Source: an uncultured Lentisphaeria bacterium (GTDB lineage: Bacteria; Verrucomicrobiota; Lentisphaeria; Victivallales; Victivallaceae). From it: 33,254 nt of DNA. The DNA lies in contig CAIMFA010000511.1 of NCBI GenBank assembly GCA_903840185.1, positions 1 to 33,254 on the forward strand. Direction: 5' to 3'. Below the pieces are notes generated by a model. It was not told where the DNA came from and did no database searches. It saw only the letters and a program-made list of their open reading frames with translations. This document shows positions 5,998 through 22,360 of the stretch, in pieces. The number at the start of each line of letters is the position of its first letter. Positions within the stretch are counted from its first letter, which is position 1. Both the position numbers and the translations under genes were made by a program.

Positions 5998-7074
5998 TCA
6001 ACGCGGTTGATACAGTTTTTTGGCTATCTCCAGCAGTTTGTTGATCTGTTCATCGGTTCCGATGCTGATCCTTACATATCTGCCAGTAGTCTTTCCCGGA
6101 AAATAACGGGTTACTATCTGATTATCCCGCAGCACATCAAAAAAGTTCTTGCCATCGTTGTCCGGAGGCGCTGCAAAGACAAAATTAGCATCGGATTCAA
6201 CGATTTCAAATCCCAGCGCCGCCAGCTTTTTAACCAGCCGTTTACGGGTGTTCAGGATCTTGGCAACAGTTTCCGCCAGATATTCACGGTCCTGCAATGC
6301 CGCTTTTACCGCCGCCTGAGTTAGCATACTGACGTTGTATGAATCCTTGACTTTCATCATGCCGTCAATGATTTTCGCCGATGCCAGGGCATAGCCGAAG
6401 CGGATTCCCGCCAGCGAGTAACTTTTGGACATAGTCCTGGAAATAATCACATTATCAAAGCATTTCACAAAATCCGCACAGTTGTCACCGGCAAAGTCGG
6501 CGTATGCTTCGTCAATCAGGACGATTCCGTCAAATTTCTCACAAATCTTAGCCACCTGTTTCAACGGATAGGAGCGTCCGGTGGGCGAATTAGGACGGGC
6601 GATCAGCAGCAGATTGGCTCCGTCAGCTTTCTTTACCACGTTCGCCGGCAGCGAAAAGTCTCTTTTCAGGCGGATCTTTATGCATTTCGCGCCTTGCATC
6701 CGGGCCAGAACATTGTACAGCGAATAGGTCGGATCGAAACACGCGGCGACACGTTCGCCGTCGGTGAAACATCTGATCGCCATGGTGAGGATATCATCGG
6801 AACCGTTGCCGGCAATGACATTTTCCCGCTTCACGCCATGCAGTTCGGCCACCACGTCGCGAATGCTGTCACACATCGGATCAGGATACAGTCGGAGGTG
6901 ATTCAACTCAAAATTCCGGATTGCCTCAATCACTTTCGGCGACGGCGGATACGGGTTTTCATTGGTGTTAAGCTTGATCAGGTTCAGCATTTTCGGCTGT
7001 TCCCCCGGCGTATAACCATTCATCTCGTCAATATCCAGACGGAAATAGGATTTTTTATTCACTCTGATTTTCAT
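5998..7074 (-). CDS. hisC: Histidinol-phosphate aminotransferase
   Basis: LIKLNTNENPYPPSPKV, NVIAGNGSDDILT, RPNSPTGRSYPL, VLIDEAYADFA, SRTMSKSYSLAGIRFGY. Confidence 0.94.
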   Translation of the reverse strand: MKIRVNKKSYFRLDIDEMNGYTPGEQPKMLNLIKLNTNENPYPPSPKVIEAIRNFELNHLRLYPDPMCDSIRDVVAELHGVKRENVIAGNGSDDILTMAIRCFTDGERVAACFDPTYSLYNVLARMQGAKCIKIRLKRDFSLPANVVKKADGANLLLIARPNSPTGRSYPLKQVAKICEKFDGIVLIDEAYADFAGDNCADFVKCFDNVIISRTMSKSYSLAGIRFGYALASAKIIDGMMKVKDSYNVSMLTQAAVKAALQDREYLAETVAKILNTRKRLVKKLAALGFEIVESDANFVFAAPPDNDGKNFFDVLRDNQIVTRYFPGKTTGRYVRISIGTDEQINKLLEIAKKLYQPR

Positions 7075-7160
7075 TAATTTTACCTTTCAATCTATAGTAA
7101 TTTGTTATTTTTACCGGCTTCATTGTCTCTTTGCGCCATCAAGCGAAATATTCAATTTTT

Positions 7161-7181
7161 CTCGCACAAAGACACAAAGAA
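7161..7181 (+). repeat. Extra direct copy of the GCACAAAG-type repeat
   Basis: ctcgcacaaagacacaaagaa; the same motif recurs at 7247 and 15971. Confidence 0.7.
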
Positions 7182-7246: not shown

Positions 7247-7275
7247 CTCGCACAAAGCCACAAAGGCACAAAGAT
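7247..7275 (+). repeat. Left inverted repeat of the GxxExxY cassette
   Basis: ctcgcacaaagccacaaaggcacaaagat; matches the reverse complement of 7660-7688 at 27/29 bases. Confidence 0.9.
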
Positions 7276-7277
7276 AT

Positions 7278-7661
7278 TTATTGAATTTGACCATTTATAA
7301 GTCTCGTCATTCCGTCTTTCATCAACGGTTCTCCAAAATTGAATAAAAATCCGAGTTTGCATCCGGTTAACTTGAGATAAGTCAATACCTGCTTTTTGTG
7401 TGCAGCATTGATTGCCTCAATGGATTTCAACTCCAGTATCACTTTATCTTCAATCACAATATCAGCTCTGAAGCCTTCTTCAAATTTTATCCCGTGATAT
7501 TCAATCGGAATCGGAACTTGCCGTTCAACTTTCAAACCGTTCAATTCAAGTTCATGAGCAAGAAGAACTTCGTAAACAGTTTCAAGAAGACCGGGGCCAA
7601 GCGCCTTATGCAGTCGAACTGCACAATTCACGGCTATTTTTCCGATTTCATCCTCATTCAT
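7278..7661 (-). CDS. GxxExxY protein (PDDEXK_3-like nuclease fold)
   Basis: MNEDEIGKIAVNCAVRLHKALGPGLLETVYEVLLAHEL...FRADIVIEDKVILELKSIEAINAAHKKQVLTYLKLTGCKLGFLFNFG. GLLETVY is the GxxExxY motif; D...ELK fits a PD-(D/E)XK core. Start moved to 7661 from ORF-track 7760. Confidence 0.9.
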   Translation of the reverse strand: MNEDEIGKIAVNCAVRLHKALGPGLLETVYEVLLAHELELNGLKVERQVPIPIEYHGIKFEEGFRADIVIEDKVILELKSIEAINAAHKKQVLTYLKLTGCKLGFLFNFGEPLMKDGMTRLINGQIQ

Positions 7662-7688
7662 CTTTGTGCCTTTGCGCCTTTGTGCGAG
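7660..7688 (-). repeat. Right inverted repeat of the GxxExxY cassette
   Basis: atctttgtgcctttgcgcctttgtgcgag; inverted partner of 7247-7275; overlaps the start codon. Confidence 0.9.
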
Positions 7689-7701: not shown

Positions 7702-8991
7702 TTATTTGATTCTGATTGACGCGCTGTTGCCGTGTGCGTCGAGTCCTTCCATCCGGGCAAAACATTCCACGGCTTTTACTTCTTTCTTCAGCGCGGCTTT
7801 CGAATACTGAATGATGCTGGAACGGCGGAAGAAACCTTCAACCGACAGTCCGCTGAAATATTTCGCGCTGCCTGCGGTAGGCAGTACATGGCTCGGGCCG
7901 GCGCAGAAATCGCCGATCGGTTCCGGCGTCCAGGGGCCGAGGAAGATCGCTCCGGCGGCCTTGATTTTCGCGGCGACCTTGGCGGCATTGCGGCACATTA
8001 CCTCAAGGTGCTCAGGCGCATAACGTCCGGCAATTTCCGCTGCCTGTTTGCAGTCCTTGACTTCAATCAGAAAGACACCGCTTTTCAAAACCTTGTCAAC
8101 GGCTTCCGGACGGCTCAAAGCAGTCTTCTGGCGCATAACCGCTTTTTCGACTTTGCCGATAAGCGCGGCATCGGTGCAAAGCAGCACGGCCTGTTCCAGT
8201 CCGCTGCCGTGTTCGGCCTGCGACAGCAGATCGGCGGCAATGAATTCCGGATTGCAGCTGTCGTCGGCAATAACCATGATTTCCGAAGGGCCTGCAACCA
8301 TATCCAGCGCGACTTCGCCGTAAACCAGTTTCTTCGCCGCGGTCACATAGGCGTTGCCGGGGCCGACGATTTTTTCGACTTTGCGAATGGTTTGCGTGCC
8401 GTAAGCCATGGCGGCAATACCGTAAACTCCGCCGAGGCGGTAAATCTCATTGATTCCAACCTGGCTCATGGCGTAGAGCACGGCGGGGTGTACTTTGCCG
8501 TCTTTACCGGCGGGAGTGACGGCTACAATCTCTTTAACTCCGGCGGCTTTGGCGATGCCGGCAGTATGAATCACGGTCGAAACCAGCGGTGCTGTGCCGC
8601 CGGGAATATATACCCCGACACGGTCCATCGGCTGAAAACGCTCACCGACAACCACGCCGGGACGCGGCGAATGGCTCCAGGCTTTCGGGATGCGCAGTCT
8701 GGCAAAAGTTTTGATGTTGGCCAGCGCGGTCTTGACGGCGGCTTTCTCCGCCGCTCCAACCTTGAGTGACGCTGCCTTGATTTCAGCTTGCGAGACTTGG
8801 AATTCCGCCGGCTTCAGGTCAGCATGATCAAATTTTTTGGCATATTTGACGATTGCGGCGTTGCCGTTATGCTTGACGTCAGCCAGAATTTCACGGATGG
8901 ATTGCTCTATTTCCGGCGGATAGGACGGGCGGCAGTAAAGCGCCTGCAGCGCCTCTTCAAAGTTTTTCTGCTTGAAACTGATCTTGATCAT
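7702..8991 (-). CDS. hisD: Histidinol dehydrogenase
   Basis: RVGVYIPGGTAPLVSTVIHTAG, DMVAGPSEIMVIAD, LLSQAEHGSGLEQAVLL, GPSHVLPTAGSAKYFSGLSVEGFFRRSS. Confidence 0.96.
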   Translation of the reverse strand: MIKISFKQKNFEEALQALYCRPSYPPEIEQSIREILADVKHNGNAAIVKYAKKFDHADLKPAEFQVSQAEIKAASLKVGAAEKAAVKTALANIKTFARLRIPKAWSHSPRPGVVVGERFQPMDRVGVYIPGGTAPLVSTVIHTAGIAKAAGVKEIVAVTPAGKDGKVHPAVLYAMSQVGINEIYRLGGVYGIAAMAYGTQTIRKVEKIVGPGNAYVTAAKKLVYGEVALDMVAGPSEIMVIADDSCNPEFIAADLLSQAEHGSGLEQAVLLCTDAALIGKVEKAVMRQKTALSRPEAVDKVLKSGVFLIEVKDCKQAAEIAGRYAPEHLEVMCRNAAKVAAKIKAAGAIFLGPWTPEPIGDFCAGPSHVLPTAGSAKYFSGLSVEGFFRRSSIIQYSKAALKKEVKAVECFARMEGLDAHGNSASIRIK

Positions 8992-15936: not shown

Positions 15937-15971
15937 TTTGCGGCGGGAGTGGGAAAAGCCAGGACAATATT

Positions 15972-16120
15972 TCGCACAAAGGCACGAAGGCGCAAAGAAG
16001 AATTTAACAGGGATGGACAGGATGGACAGGATTTATGCTTCATCTCTGATTTTGAATCAAGATTATGATTCTCAAATCCAAATAAATGTCTTATCTTTGT
16101 GTCTTTGCGGCTTGGTGCGA
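15972..16120. repeat. Possible small non-autonomous (MITE-like) unit
   Basis: Inverted ends 15972-15999 and 16093-16120 match at about 21/28 and are related to the GxxExxY cassette ends; ~93-bp interior with no convincing gene. Confidence 0.5.
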
Positions 16121-16278
16121 GAAAATAGAATCCTATGGAATATTTCACACGGAGATACGAAAATGAATAAAATCGGAAGAAATGATGGTCTTCTGAAAAT
16201 CATATTGTTGCAAGTGTCGATATATAGTGCTATATTTCTTGTATATCAAAAATAATTATACATTTGCAGAGGTATATC

Positions 16279-17520
16279 TTGTATAAAAGAAATCTTTACA
16301 TACGAAAAATTACTCCTTTTTTGGGTAAGCCAGTGGTAAAGGTTATCACAGGAATGCGACGCTCCGGCAAAAGCTGTCTGGTCCGGTTGCTGATCGACAA
16401 GTTAATGGCAGATGGCGTAAACCGCGGGCAAATCGTTTATATTGACAAGGAATCGTATGAATTTGACGCAATACACACCTATCATGATCTAGCTGCGCAT
16501 GTCAAAGCGGCACAGCAGAACGCTGGCGGGATCTGCTATGTTTTTGTTGACGAAATCCAGGAGATACAGGAATGGGAAAAAATCGTTGCGGACTGGTCCG
16601 GGCGGCACGATATTGACGTGGTAATTACCGGTTCAAATGCCAGTCTCCTTTCCGGCGAACTCGCGACGCTGCTGGCTGGAAGATTCGTTGAAATCCGGAT
16701 GTTCCCGCTGTCATTTTCCGAGTTTCTGACTTTCAACGAATTGCAGAAAACGGAGACCCCGGAGGCGTTCAAACAATTTTTGTACTACGGCGGACTGCCC
16801 GGACTGCACGAACTGGGGCAGTTGTCTGATTCTACATTCCGTCCGTTTGTCGCAGGTGTTTACGACTCGATTATGCTGAAAGACATTGTGCGGCGGCATC
16901 AGGTGCGGAACTACGTACTGCTCGAACAGGTCGGCCGCTATATTTTTGACAACATAGGCAATCTCACAAACGCCAGCCGGATTAATGCTTTTCTGAAAAG
17001 CCAGAAACTATCCGTCGGAGTGGACACCATCCTGAACTATATGCGGTGGTTTGCGGATGCTCATCTGACTCACCGTCTTTTACTGTACGATATCAAAGGA
17101 CGGCGTCATCTGGAGGTTAACGAGAAGCATTTTGTGGCGGATTTAGGACTGCGCACCGCCGCAATCGGTTATCGGGCGGATGATATCGGCGGGATGCTGG
17201 AAAATGTGGTATGTATCGAGCTTCTCCGGAGAGGTTACCGTGTCTCTGTCGGCCGGATCGGAGAGCTTGAAATTGATTTTGTGGCAGAGCGTGACGGCAT
17301 GAAGACATACATCCAGGTCGCATATCTGCTGCCGTCCAGAACGACTGTTGAGCGTGAGTGTGCGGCGCTGCTGGCAGTTAAGGATAACTATCCCAAGCTG
17401 TTGCTGACTTTGGACCGCGAGATGGGAAACGATTACGAGGGAGTGCGCCGTCTTTATCTTCCGGATTGGCTGAATGCTGTCGAAGAAGGCGAAAACACCG
17501 GCAATATATGCAATATTTAG
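16279..17520 (+). CDS. AAA_14-type ATPase with DUF4143 C-terminal domain
   Basis: VVKVITGMRRSGKSCLVRLLIDKL Walker A, ICYVFVDEIQEIQEWEKI Walker B, VVITGSNASLLSGELATLLAGRFVEIRMFPLSFSEFL. Likely TTG start at 16279 (LYKRNLYIRK) with AGAGG upstream; ORF-track start is 16264. Confidence 0.88.
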   Translation: MYKRNLYIRKITPFLGKPVVKVITGMRRSGKSCLVRLLIDKLMADGVNRGQIVYIDKESYEFDAIHTYHDLAAHVKAAQQNAGGICYVFVDEIQEIQEWEKIVADWSGRHDIDVVITGSNASLLSGELATLLAGRFVEIRMFPLSFSEFLTFNELQKTETPEAFKQFLYYGGLPGLHELGQLSDSTFRPFVAGVYDSIMLKDIVRRHQVRNYVLLEQVGRYIFDNIGNLTNASRINAFLKSQKLSVGVDTILNYMRWFADAHLTHRLLLYDIKGRRHLEVNEKHFVADLGLRTAAIGYRADDIGGMLENVVCIELLRRGYRVSVGRIGELEIDFVAERDGMKTYIQVAYLLPSRTTVERECAALLAVKDNYPKLLLTLDREMGNDYEGVRRLYLPDWLNAVEEGENTGNICNI

Positions 17521-17558
17521 TATATATCAAAAATAAATAGTAAAATTATAAATATTTC

Positions 17559-17584
17559 TTGTATAGACGAAATCTTTTTATAAA
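17559..17584 (+). pseudogene. Remnant 5' end of a second ATPase gene of the same family
   Basis: TTGTATAGACGAAATCTTTTTATAAAA reads (M)YRRNLFIK, matching (M)YKRNLYIRK at 16279, then runs directly into the inverted end. cttgtata..gaaatcttt..ata matches 16278-16302 at about 21/25. Confidence 0.55.
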
Positions 17585-17665
17585 ATCATCCTGTATATCC
17601 TGTCCATCCCTGTTAAATTTCCCTTTGCGGCTTAGTGAGAGAAAAAATAACGTTCAGAATCACGG

Positions 17666-19698: not shown

Positions 19699-21378
19699 TT
19701 ACAGTGCCTTCTGTTCCGGTTCTTTGTGGGCGGCGGCTTTAAGTCGCCATCTTGCGGCTTCTGCTTCATCTTTCGCAACTCCTTCGCCGGAAGCATAACA
19801 GCGGGCAAGTTCGCGCTCTGCGTATGCATATTCCTGATCAGCGGCTTTACGCCACCATTTTACGGCTTCGGTTTTGTCTTTTGTCAATCCGGGATAACCA
19901 TTGTCATAACATTCCCCCAGCCTATACTGTGCTTCTGCATACCCTTTTTCTGCGGCCTTTCTCCAAAACTTTAAAGCCTCAGCGTGATCGGACCAAATAC
20001 CGGAACCACAATCATAACAACAGCCTAACCCGTACAGCGCTTTCGCGTCGCCTGTTTCCGCAGCTTTGCGACGTTCAATATAACTATTTAATTCTCCAAG
20101 CCTAACCGGAGCACTTTCTGATCCGTTTTTCACTGCGAGGCGATACCATTTCGCGGCTTCGACCTCATTCCTCTCCACCCCCCATGCAGTTGTATAACAA
20201 TGCCCTAACAAACTCTGAGCTTCCGAATGTCCCTGTTCCGCAGCTTTGCGCCACCATTTTGCAGCGTCGGCTTTATCTTTTGCCACGCCGTCACCTTTTA
20301 AATAACAAAATCCTAAACAATACTGCGCTTCTATATGCCCCTGCTCAGCAGCCTTGCGATACCATTTTGCTTGTTCAACCCAGTTTTCTGAGTTACCTTT
20401 GCCACGATAATAACTAGCGCCAAGAGAATACTGAGCTTCTGTCAGTCCCTGTTCGGCGGCTTTTCGCCACCATCCTTTCGCGTCTTCACGGCTTCCATCC
20501 ACGCCATAACTGTTTGCATAACAAATACCAAGCATATACTCTGCCTTCGCATACCCTTGTTCTGCTGCTTTGCGATACCATTTTACAGCTTCAACATTAT
20601 CTTTTGTTATTCCGGCATATCTATTATAACCAAACCATAAATTATTCTGTACCGGAAAAATCCACGGCTGCTCAGCGGACTTCCGCCACTTTTTTAAAGT
20701 TTCGTCTTCATCCTTTGAGCCTCCGTTATAATAGCATTCACCTAGTTCATACTGTGCTTTCGCATTTCCATATTCTGCGGCATTTTTGATGCAAAATATT
20801 TTGAATGTTGAATTTCCGGAAAGCAACGGCAGACAGAACTGTATTGCTCCATATAAATACAGTACTGTCAATATAATAACAGCCGCAGAGATTCTCCACC
20901 TACCAATAATTTGGTGCTGAACAACCAACTTCCCATCCCGGTCCCAGGCAGTTCTTCCGTTCTTTTTTAGACTATTATATGCAAGAATATTAGTTACAAG
21001 CGAAACCAGCGGAATACCCAGGCCTTCGCCACGCCACCAGACACGGACTGACCGGGTTATCGCTCCGGAATAATTAAATTTCGTTCCATCATCCGTCCGC
21101 AACTTTATTCTTAAAAGCGCTTTCCCCGGAGTGGTGCCACAAAAAGCAAGCATGATTGATTCAAAAAAGACATAAGCCGTCAACAGCAGCAAGGTTAAAT
21201 TTATGCTGGAAAAATCCAGTATTGTCGGATAAAAGATTTGCAAAACAACGCCTGCCAGTAATCCGAAAATACCGTAATCTATCATTCGAGCCCAGAACCG
21301 AACCCATGGCCGTACTTGCGGATCAGGGTTCTCTGTTGAATCTGCTAATTGTTTGTCTTCTGTGTCAGATTTCAGCAT
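19699..21378 (-). CDS. RDD-domain membrane protein fused to Sel1-like repeats
   Basis: N-terminal VRFWARMIDYGIFGLLAG...FCGTTPGKALLRIKL (RDD), then about nine repeats of the type GYAEAQYRLGECYDNG...A.KWWRKAAEQ. Confidence 0.88.
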   Translation of the reverse strand: MLKSDTEDKQLADSTENPDPQVRPWVRFWARMIDYGIFGLLAGVVLQIFYPTILDFSSINLTLLLLTAYVFFESIMLAFCGTTPGKALLRIKLRTDDGTKFNYSGAITRSVRVWWRGEGLGIPLVSLVTNILAYNSLKKNGRTAWDRDGKLVVQHQIIGRWRISAAVIILTVLYLYGAIQFCLPLLSGNSTFKIFCIKNAAEYGNAKAQYELGECYYNGGSKDEDETLKKWRKSAEQPWIFPVQNNLWFGYNRYAGITKDNVEAVKWYRKAAEQGYAKAEYMLGICYANSYGVDGSREDAKGWWRKAAEQGLTEAQYSLGASYYRGKGNSENWVEQAKWYRKAAEQGHIEAQYCLGFCYLKGDGVAKDKADAAKWWRKAAEQGHSEAQSLLGHCYTTAWGVERNEVEAAKWYRLAVKNGSESAPVRLGELNSYIERRKAAETGDAKALYGLGCCYDCGSGIWSDHAEALKFWRKAAEKGYAEAQYRLGECYDNGYPGLTKDKTEAVKWWRKAADQEYAYAERELARCYASGEGVAKDEAEAARWRLKAAAHKEPEQKAL

Positions 21379-21639: not shown

Positions 21640-22360
21640 ACGGAACAATTGAAATTTGAAAATTGAAAGTGGAAAATTGAAAATGAAAAGCAAGAAAAGG
21701 CAAGACAAGCGAGAAAAGTTGAAAGCTTGAGAGCCAGGGAAACAGAGGCAAAACATTCTGCACATGAGTGTCCAAAATGTATAAGTTTATAAAAGGCATA
21801 GTCTGGTTTCCGGAAAACCGGAATGGGGCTTATGGGTCCTATGGGGCCAATGAGACATATAGGCATGGGTGTCCAAAATGAGCTTGATGGGTGTCCAAAA
21901 TGGGGTGCCCGCGGACGCGGGAGTGGAAAGCGAGACAAGCGAGACAAGCTAGACAAGCTAGACAAGCGAGACAAGCTAGACAAGCGAGACAAGCTAGACA
22001 AGCGAGACAAGCGAGACAAGCGAGACAAGCGAGACAAGCGAGACAAGCGAGACAAGCTAGACAAGCTAGACAAGCGAGACAAGCTAGACAAGCTAGACAA
22101 GCTAGACAGGCTAGAAAAGTTATGAAGACAGGGTGCAGGAGGGGTGTCCAAAATGTCCAAAAAGACAATTGAAACTGGAAACCTGAAAAGCGGGGAAATT
22201 GCAGAATGCCTCCCAGGCCTGCCAGTCCTCCAAGTCCTCCAAGTCCTCCAAGTCCGAAACCGCATATGCACATGGGGTGTCCAAAATGTCCAAAATGAGT
22301 GGCAAGGCTGTCCAAAATGTCCGTGGCGTCCGTTTTGTCCGTCATGTCCGTGGGCTGTTT
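21640..22360. repeat. Mosaic of several 9-bp-periodic repeat arrays
   Basis: gacaagc(g/t)a x20 (21934-22113), atggggcct-like (21823-21867), agtcctcca x3.5 (22224-22255), gtccaaaat x8 dispersed, gtccgtNNN x4 (22319-22354). Confidence 0.9.

Follow-up and report, generated by a model that had tools for sequence, protein, structure and literature searches.

A tiny nuclease gene framed by its own inverted repeat arrays: a possible minimal mobile element of a kind not recognised before

GxxExxY genes lie between inverted arrays of short tandem units, and sequence comparison makes this pairing of gene and array almost certainly real and general. This tiny nuclease gene is spread over many bacterial phyla, is present in some genomes and missing from their relatives, and occurs where its repeat is dispersed through the genome; together these features suggest a minimal mobile element of a kind that had gone unrecognised. 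The family concerned, TIGR04256, is a common orphan family, and now that it is paired with a specific DNA target, its function is open to direct test.

RESULTS

A GxxExxY gene with terminal arrays between hisD and hisC

The window, the whole stretch of DNA that was analysed, comprises 33,254 nucleotides of a contig from an uncultured Lentisphaeria bacterium. The GxxExxY gene and its surroundings are arranged as follows.

5998..7074, minus strand: hisC, the host operon gene downstream of the element, on the same strand
7160..7179, plus strand: an extra two-unit solo copy of the window repeat
7247..7275, plus strand: the inverted array at the downstream end of the element, CTCGCACAAAG-CCACAAAG-GCACAAAGAT, which lies 2 nt from the stop codon
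7278..7661, minus strand: the GxxExxY gene, 127 aa, with a predicted PD-(D/E)XK fold and the residues E27, D67, E77-x-K79 and Q91xxxY95
7660..7688, minus strand: the array at the upstream end of the element, made of three 8-nt units (CTCGCACAAAG-GCGCAAAG-GCACAAAGAT), which overlaps the ATG
7702..8991, minus strand: hisD, the host operon gene upstream of the element, on the same strand

The GxxExxY gene reads on the minus strand from an ATG at 7661-7659 to a stop codon at 7280-7278. The initial annotation had placed it between hisC and hisD, and the sequences of the two neighbours, from which we assigned their names, agree with this placement. Homologues of hisD and hisC are adjacent in many related genomes. 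The arms at 7247-7275 and 7660-7688 are inverted and match at 27/29 as originally described, and the left arm indeed ends 2 nt from the stop codon while the right arm overlaps the start codon. Their description as an inverted repeat stands in part: the arms are not a plain repeat, since each is a row of three units of about 8 nt, CGCACAAAG-nCnCAAAG-nCnCAAAG. The window arms score 25, a value reached by 0 of 1242 random control positions from GxxExxY loci. The stretch equivalent to 7160..7179 is also packed with inverted copies in the congeners G106 and G111.

The predicted protein is a small nuclease

The earlier reading of the unit as encoding one small protein with a PD-(D/E)XK-like core is supported by both profile matches and the predicted fold. 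The unit holds a single gene, whose product matches the profiles TIGR04256 (1.4e-40, 138.3 bits against a cut-off of 35) and PF13366 PDDEXK_3 (1.3e-39, 135.7 bits against a cut-off of 22) and no others. In an alignment of 106 sequences, G24, E27, Y30 and D67 are invariant, and E77, K79, Q91 and Y95 are conserved at 90% or more. D67, E77-x-K79 and Q91-x-x-x-Y95 are the motifs of the RecB/Cas4/lambda-exonuclease group. An AlphaFold model computed from these 106 aligned sequences has a mean pLDDT of 94, and its best Foldseek match in the PDB is SSO0001, a Cas4 nuclease (probability 0.99, E 0.005), followed by lambda-exonuclease-type folds. Because the Foldseek E-values exceed 0.001, the similarity to Cas4 and lambda exonuclease holds at the level of fold only; at that level, the model assigns the protein with high confidence to a Cas4/lambda-exonuclease-like PD-(D/E)XK fold. 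A sequence search against solved structures returns nothing below E 0.1, with T7 endonuclease I as the best match at 0.14, and no PADLOC family matches the protein at E <= 0.01.

TIGR04256 is present in 166 of 291 sampled genomes of the phylum of the window, with up to 13 copies each. Phages yield no match to GxxExxY. Plasmids yield 7-8 matching records, all below 60% identity and unsuitable for a strain-level comparison of empty sites.

Inverted arms accompany GxxExxY genes across phyla

GxxExxY genes were collected from the order and phylum of the window and from named genomes of many phyla. The scan of the collection used a narrower profile, as one built from 56 diverse sequences was too variable, and the 80 named loci consequently lean towards one clade. 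Both flanks were scored for 208 genes from more than 10 phyla, with a score of at least 16 taken as the threshold for arms.

The initial annotation would have been refuted by repeats unconnected with GxxExxY genes elsewhere, but the data show the opposite: inverted arms at or above this threshold flank 162 of the 208 genes (78%) across phyla, as against 10 of 1242 random positions (0.8%) and 6 of 153 other coding sequences of the same loci (3.9%). About 22% of GxxExxY genes are without clear arms. When the upstream flank of one gene is paired with the downstream flank of another, arms of at least 16 appear in just 6.3%, which indicates that the arms belong to their own gene. Arms are found in Planctomycetota (9/9), Chloroflexota (8/8), Pseudomonadota (11/14), Bacteroidota (7/11) and Acidobacteriota (3/6), and other phyla are also positive. 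Where a unit lies between two co-directional neighbours, it is on their strand in 107 of 112 cases, so the GxxExxY gene is apparently read with the host operon.

The arrays share a grammar and vary with the protein

The arrays follow the grammar C-[A/G]-C-[A/G]-[A/G]-A-[G/A/T], repeated in three units, which fits well in 134 of the 162 arm pairs and in 44 of 810 control stretches. The units are spaced 8-11 nt apart, with a mode of 9, and their letters vary by locus (CACGAAG, CACAGAG, CGCAAAG, CACGAAT, CGCAGAT, CACGGAA and others). A further array type, ACAGGAT, has the same layout and fits the grammar less exactly. G034 alone carries about ten GxxExxY paralogues with different arrays.

The more alike two proteins are, the more alike are their arrays (rho 0.50; permutations reach at most 0.20). 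On the protein tree, array type requires 61 changes, and at least 82 under shuffled labels. Inside single genomes the pairing of array and protein is weak, among only a few pairs (47, p=0.09). The nearest proteins with clear arms, those of L078, L051 and L073, are 93%, 80% and 73% identical to the window protein, and their arrays are the same as, or nearly the same as, those of the window, in loci that include other genera and unrelated flanks. Linked inheritance would yield part of the correlation between protein and array. However, the unit grammar is common to proteins that are just 30% identical, and linkage alone is therefore insufficient. A residue-base code between residue 94 and the last base of the unit (T/S94 with G, N94 with T/A) looked near perfect in these data; we rejected it because the pattern comes down to one deep division between clades, not to repeated coupling, and independent pairs are too few.

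Copies of the window repeat are dispersed and mostly solo

Following the initial annotation, we searched the repeat in the genome and in relatives. The genome spans 6.05 Mb in 1030 contigs and has 66 matches to CGCACAAAGNCNCAAAG when up to one mismatch is allowed, compared with 2 for a reversed control pattern. The majority of the copies are solo, and they lie mostly outside genes, with 4 of 23 inside an ORF of at least 130 aa as against 51% of random positions.

Copies were also counted in 121 genomes of the order. Six genomes with the cognate gene hold large numbers (G000 66, G111 71, G010 80, G024 48, G037 33 and G018 19), and six relatives (G028, G096, G031, G106, G002 and G034) hold 9-25. 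Among the latter, G028 keeps short stretches that match the cognate gene, and the other five have 9-17 copies and no known cognate gene. The remaining 109 genomes, several of which have non-cognate GxxExxY genes, contain 0-2 copies. By these counts, only genomes that carry the cognate gene, and relatives of these, have solo copies in high numbers.

Polymorphic sites, geneless copies and movement

The hisD-hisC junction, for which an empty counterpart in relatives had been sought, contains the gene in G000 and G111 and only geneless inverted copies in the congener G106, whose flanks are closely related (hisC 96-97% identical, hisD 95%). The site is therefore not uniformly occupied, whereas the initial annotation would have been refuted by a vertically conserved arrangement with no empty sites. 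Presence of the unit also varies at three other sites. The L061 unit, found in G024, is missing in G037, where the junction is nearly clean, and in G028 and G018, and it is present in G034, which belongs to another genus. The L060 unit of G028 is also found in G037, and G024 and G018 are geneless there. A site between gatA and gatB, as we read its flanking genes, holds a unit in G314. Neither G180 nor G219 has the gene at this site, the flanks being 79-90% identical; in G219 another inverted pair lies at this position, and G180 possibly keeps an array stub. The four sites, as sequences, appear compatible with either gain or loss of the unit. Since the flanks of the compared sites are 70-90% identical and too diverged for a base-by-base alignment of the junctions, a target-site duplication is undefinable here.

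Units with near-identical proteins also occur at unrelated sites: the L086 and L088 proteins are 95% identical and the L199 and L239 proteins 92%, with the same arrays and with flanks that have no homology. Geneless and truncated derivatives exist as well, including one in the window.

15967..16129, plus strand: an element of about 163 bp that has no gene, resembles a MITE and bears the window's CGCACAAAG arms at both ends

Two copies of this element, 77-80% identical, lie in the hisD-hisC junction of G111, a genome that also contains 5'-part copies of the gene cut off after the first 10-15 codons. On the sequence record, movement appears better supported by the near-identical units at unrelated sites and the geneless copies than by the polymorphism, and the units are very probably mobile. 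Vertical-only inheritance was rejected on account of the geneless junctions in congeners and the near-identical units at unrelated sites.

The same G111 junction (L207) contains several geneless and truncated copies, nested and stacked on one another, which suggests that arrays attract further insertions.

Other framed genes and repeats

A second gene of the window is framed in a similar manner.

15974..17643, plus strand: composite inverted arrays of the CAAAG type and the ACAGGAT type, with arms at 15983-16032 and 17588-17637 (86%)

An AAA_14/DUF4143 ATPase gene (16264-17520), which matches the PADLOC candidate PDC-S01, lies between these arrays; arrays may carry other cargo. Outside the window, half of the four-helix-bundle/23S-IVP genes at the TIGR02436 loci L333-L362 of the order are framed by inverted tandem arrays, compared with 0 of 240 controls. 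Their units are 6-9 nt long (GTTATAG, AATGCGG, TTGAAAG and others); this gene family is the second with ends of this style. One intergenic site contains a GxxExxY unit in G024 (L036) and G018 (L035) and an inverted-repeat-framed IVP gene in G028 (L312), which implies that different small elements use the same site.

The window also has a long 9-nt tandem array at 21927-22118 (AAGCGAGAC/AAGCTAGAC, about 21 units), close to several TGTCCAAAATG repeats, and imperfect repeats at 19720-20725 spaced by about 108 nt and multiples of it.

DISCUSSION

A proposed mechanism and its alternatives

What does the GxxExxY protein do with the arrays that frame its gene? The minimal element would consist of a GxxExxY gene and two inverted three-unit arrays, residing in line inside host operons, and its product would be a small Cas4/lambda-exonuclease-like PD-(D/E)XK nuclease with specificity for the array type of its own unit. 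The protein may bind its own arrays and may nick or trim the DNA there, possibly on single strands at the replication fork. Host repair or replication could then place a copy of the whole unit, or of just the array, elsewhere between genes. The solo copies would be trans-mobilised or residual ends, as in REP/RAYT systems. Judged from the sequence comparisons, recognition of the array by its protein, which the initial annotation had raised as a possibility, is probable, and we lean slightly towards the nuclease being the mobility enzyme of the unit as well. With moderate confidence, we favour the combined reading in which array, gene and array constitute a minimal mobile element and the nuclease that it encodes recognises the arrays at the ends of the element. 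As a more tentative proposal, of which we are less than half persuaded, GxxExxY proteins could be the first known case of PD-(D/E)XK nucleases of the RecB/Cas4 type serving on their own as the mobility enzyme of a transposon-like element. They would read three-unit arrays by a diversifiable specificity, with one genome hosting about ten nuclease-repeat pairs that shape its intergenic DNA. The many cognate nuclease-target pairs with one simple grammar are natural material from which a protein-DNA recognition code could be learned.

The arrays might instead be spread by another enzyme, or by replication slippage or template switching, with GxxExxY as one of several small genes caught between them. 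Such a passenger role would fit the similar framing of the 23S-IVP/four-helix-bundle genes (50% with arms of at least 16 against 0/240) and of the AAA_14/DUF4143 gene of the window, as well as the L036 site, where the GxxExxY unit of G024 has an inverted-repeat-framed IVP gene as its counterpart in G028. However, GxxExxY genes have a unit grammar of their own and locus-specific arms that track the protein tree, the arrays of IVP genes differ, and the window repeat reaches high copy numbers only where the cognate gene is present and in a few related genomes. We thus consider a passenger role unlikely. It is more improbable still that the arrays serve in autoregulation or self-marking, with the nuclease binding them as an operator or as protected sites, for example in a defence or toxin-like function, while movement of the unit would be rare or a matter of ordinary horizontal transfer. 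The upstream array does overlap the start codon or lie directly beside it, it can provide a leader rich in purines, and the protein has a nuclease fold with an unassigned substrate. Autoregulation would, however, leave the downstream inverted copy, the dozens of solo copies and the geneless derivatives unexplained, and the gene is without a match in PADLOC.

The inverted position of the arms around an in-line gene within operons also raises the question of whether the arms pair in the operon mRNA and loop out the gene, like the stems of 23S rRNA intervening sequences that are substrates of RNase III. A precedent is the Coxiella 23S intervening sequence, in which GACAGAT heptamers stand in tandem and which RNase III cuts out (PMC4990558). 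The differences between arms, however, are not biased to G-U-compatible changes (176 versus 164, p=0.55), which argues for a role at the DNA level and not at the RNA level; in addition, the majority of repeat copies are solo, and Rfam has no match anywhere in the window. RNA pairing as the cause of the inverted arms was rejected on the unbiased G-U-compatible changes, and we regard looping out of the gene as very improbable indeed. The mobile element with its own array-reading nuclease remains the reading that we prefer, and its relation to known systems is considered below.

Comparison with known systems

The 23S intervening sequences with an S23/IVP ORF (PF05635) resemble the GxxExxY unit in combining one small ORF with short tandem units; in Coxiella, three GACAGAT heptamers stand upstream of the ORF (PMC4990558). 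IVP genes of the order of the window are likewise framed by inverted tandem arrays. In contrast, S23/IVP is an unrelated four-helix bundle with no nuclease fold, the unit sequences differ, and GxxExxY units lie between protein-coding genes, here hisD and hisC, not in rRNA. A classification of the unit as a 23S intervening sequence was rejected accordingly, because it is not inside a 23S rRNA helix and encodes no S23/IVP four-helix-bundle protein. Insertion sequences and MITEs share with it the terminal inverted repeats, the presence/absence polymorphism and the internally deleted and geneless copies. Unlike an insertion sequence, the GxxExxY unit has no DDE, HUH or tyrosine/serine recombinase, and its gene is only about 380 bp long. 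The Cas4, lambda exonuclease and RecB-like nucleases have the same predicted fold and order of motifs (D67, E77xK79, Q91xxxY95), whereas the GxxExxY protein has only about 127 aa and an additional conserved GxxExxY motif, and its gene in the window is adjoined by no CRISPR or recombination partner. Multicopy direct repeats of 6-42 nt, with intergenic families that cluster together, occur in Geobacter bemidjiensis (PMC2996986); the main text of that paper names no gene associated with them.

The parallel drawn by the initial annotation was with REP/RAYT units. In these systems (REP/REPIN-RAYT, TnpA-REP, REPtron), a single gene lies beside copies of its own repeat, the repeat is dispersed and mostly intergenic, and a genome may have several distinct gene-repeat pairs as well as geneless doublets (PMC3116915, PMC8266576). 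The likeness holds for the dispersed solo copies, the cognate pairing, the geneless derivatives and the flanking of the gene by its own genome-dispersed repeat. It does not extend to the enzyme or to the repeat: the GxxExxY protein is, by profile and predicted fold, a PD-(D/E)XK enzyme and RAYT is an HUH/Tyr enzyme, and the GxxExxY repeat is a direct array of three C-R-C-R-R-A-K units, whereas REP is a palindrome that follows GTAG or a similar tetranucleotide. The aligned copies of the window repeat show no palindrome inside a single array, and solo copies outnumber inverted pairs in the GxxExxY system. Membership in REP/RAYT was therefore rejected on enzyme class and on the palindromic GTAG repeat.

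The GxxExxY gene-array system thus falls outside every known family considered and is, in this sense, categorically new. In the literature searched, which excluded supplements, subscription papers and NCBI family notes, the GxxExxY family is named only in passing, no paper joins it to repeats, and the repeat words return nothing relevant. The newness concerns the gene-array system and holds insofar as the pairing is also undescribed in those supplements, subscription papers and NCBI notes. If the proposed mechanism is true, it would account for a large class of the short repeats that lie between genes in environmental bacteria, and the GxxExxY nucleases with their three-unit arrays would represent a second, independently evolved solution to the task that RAYT enzymes perform on REP sequences.
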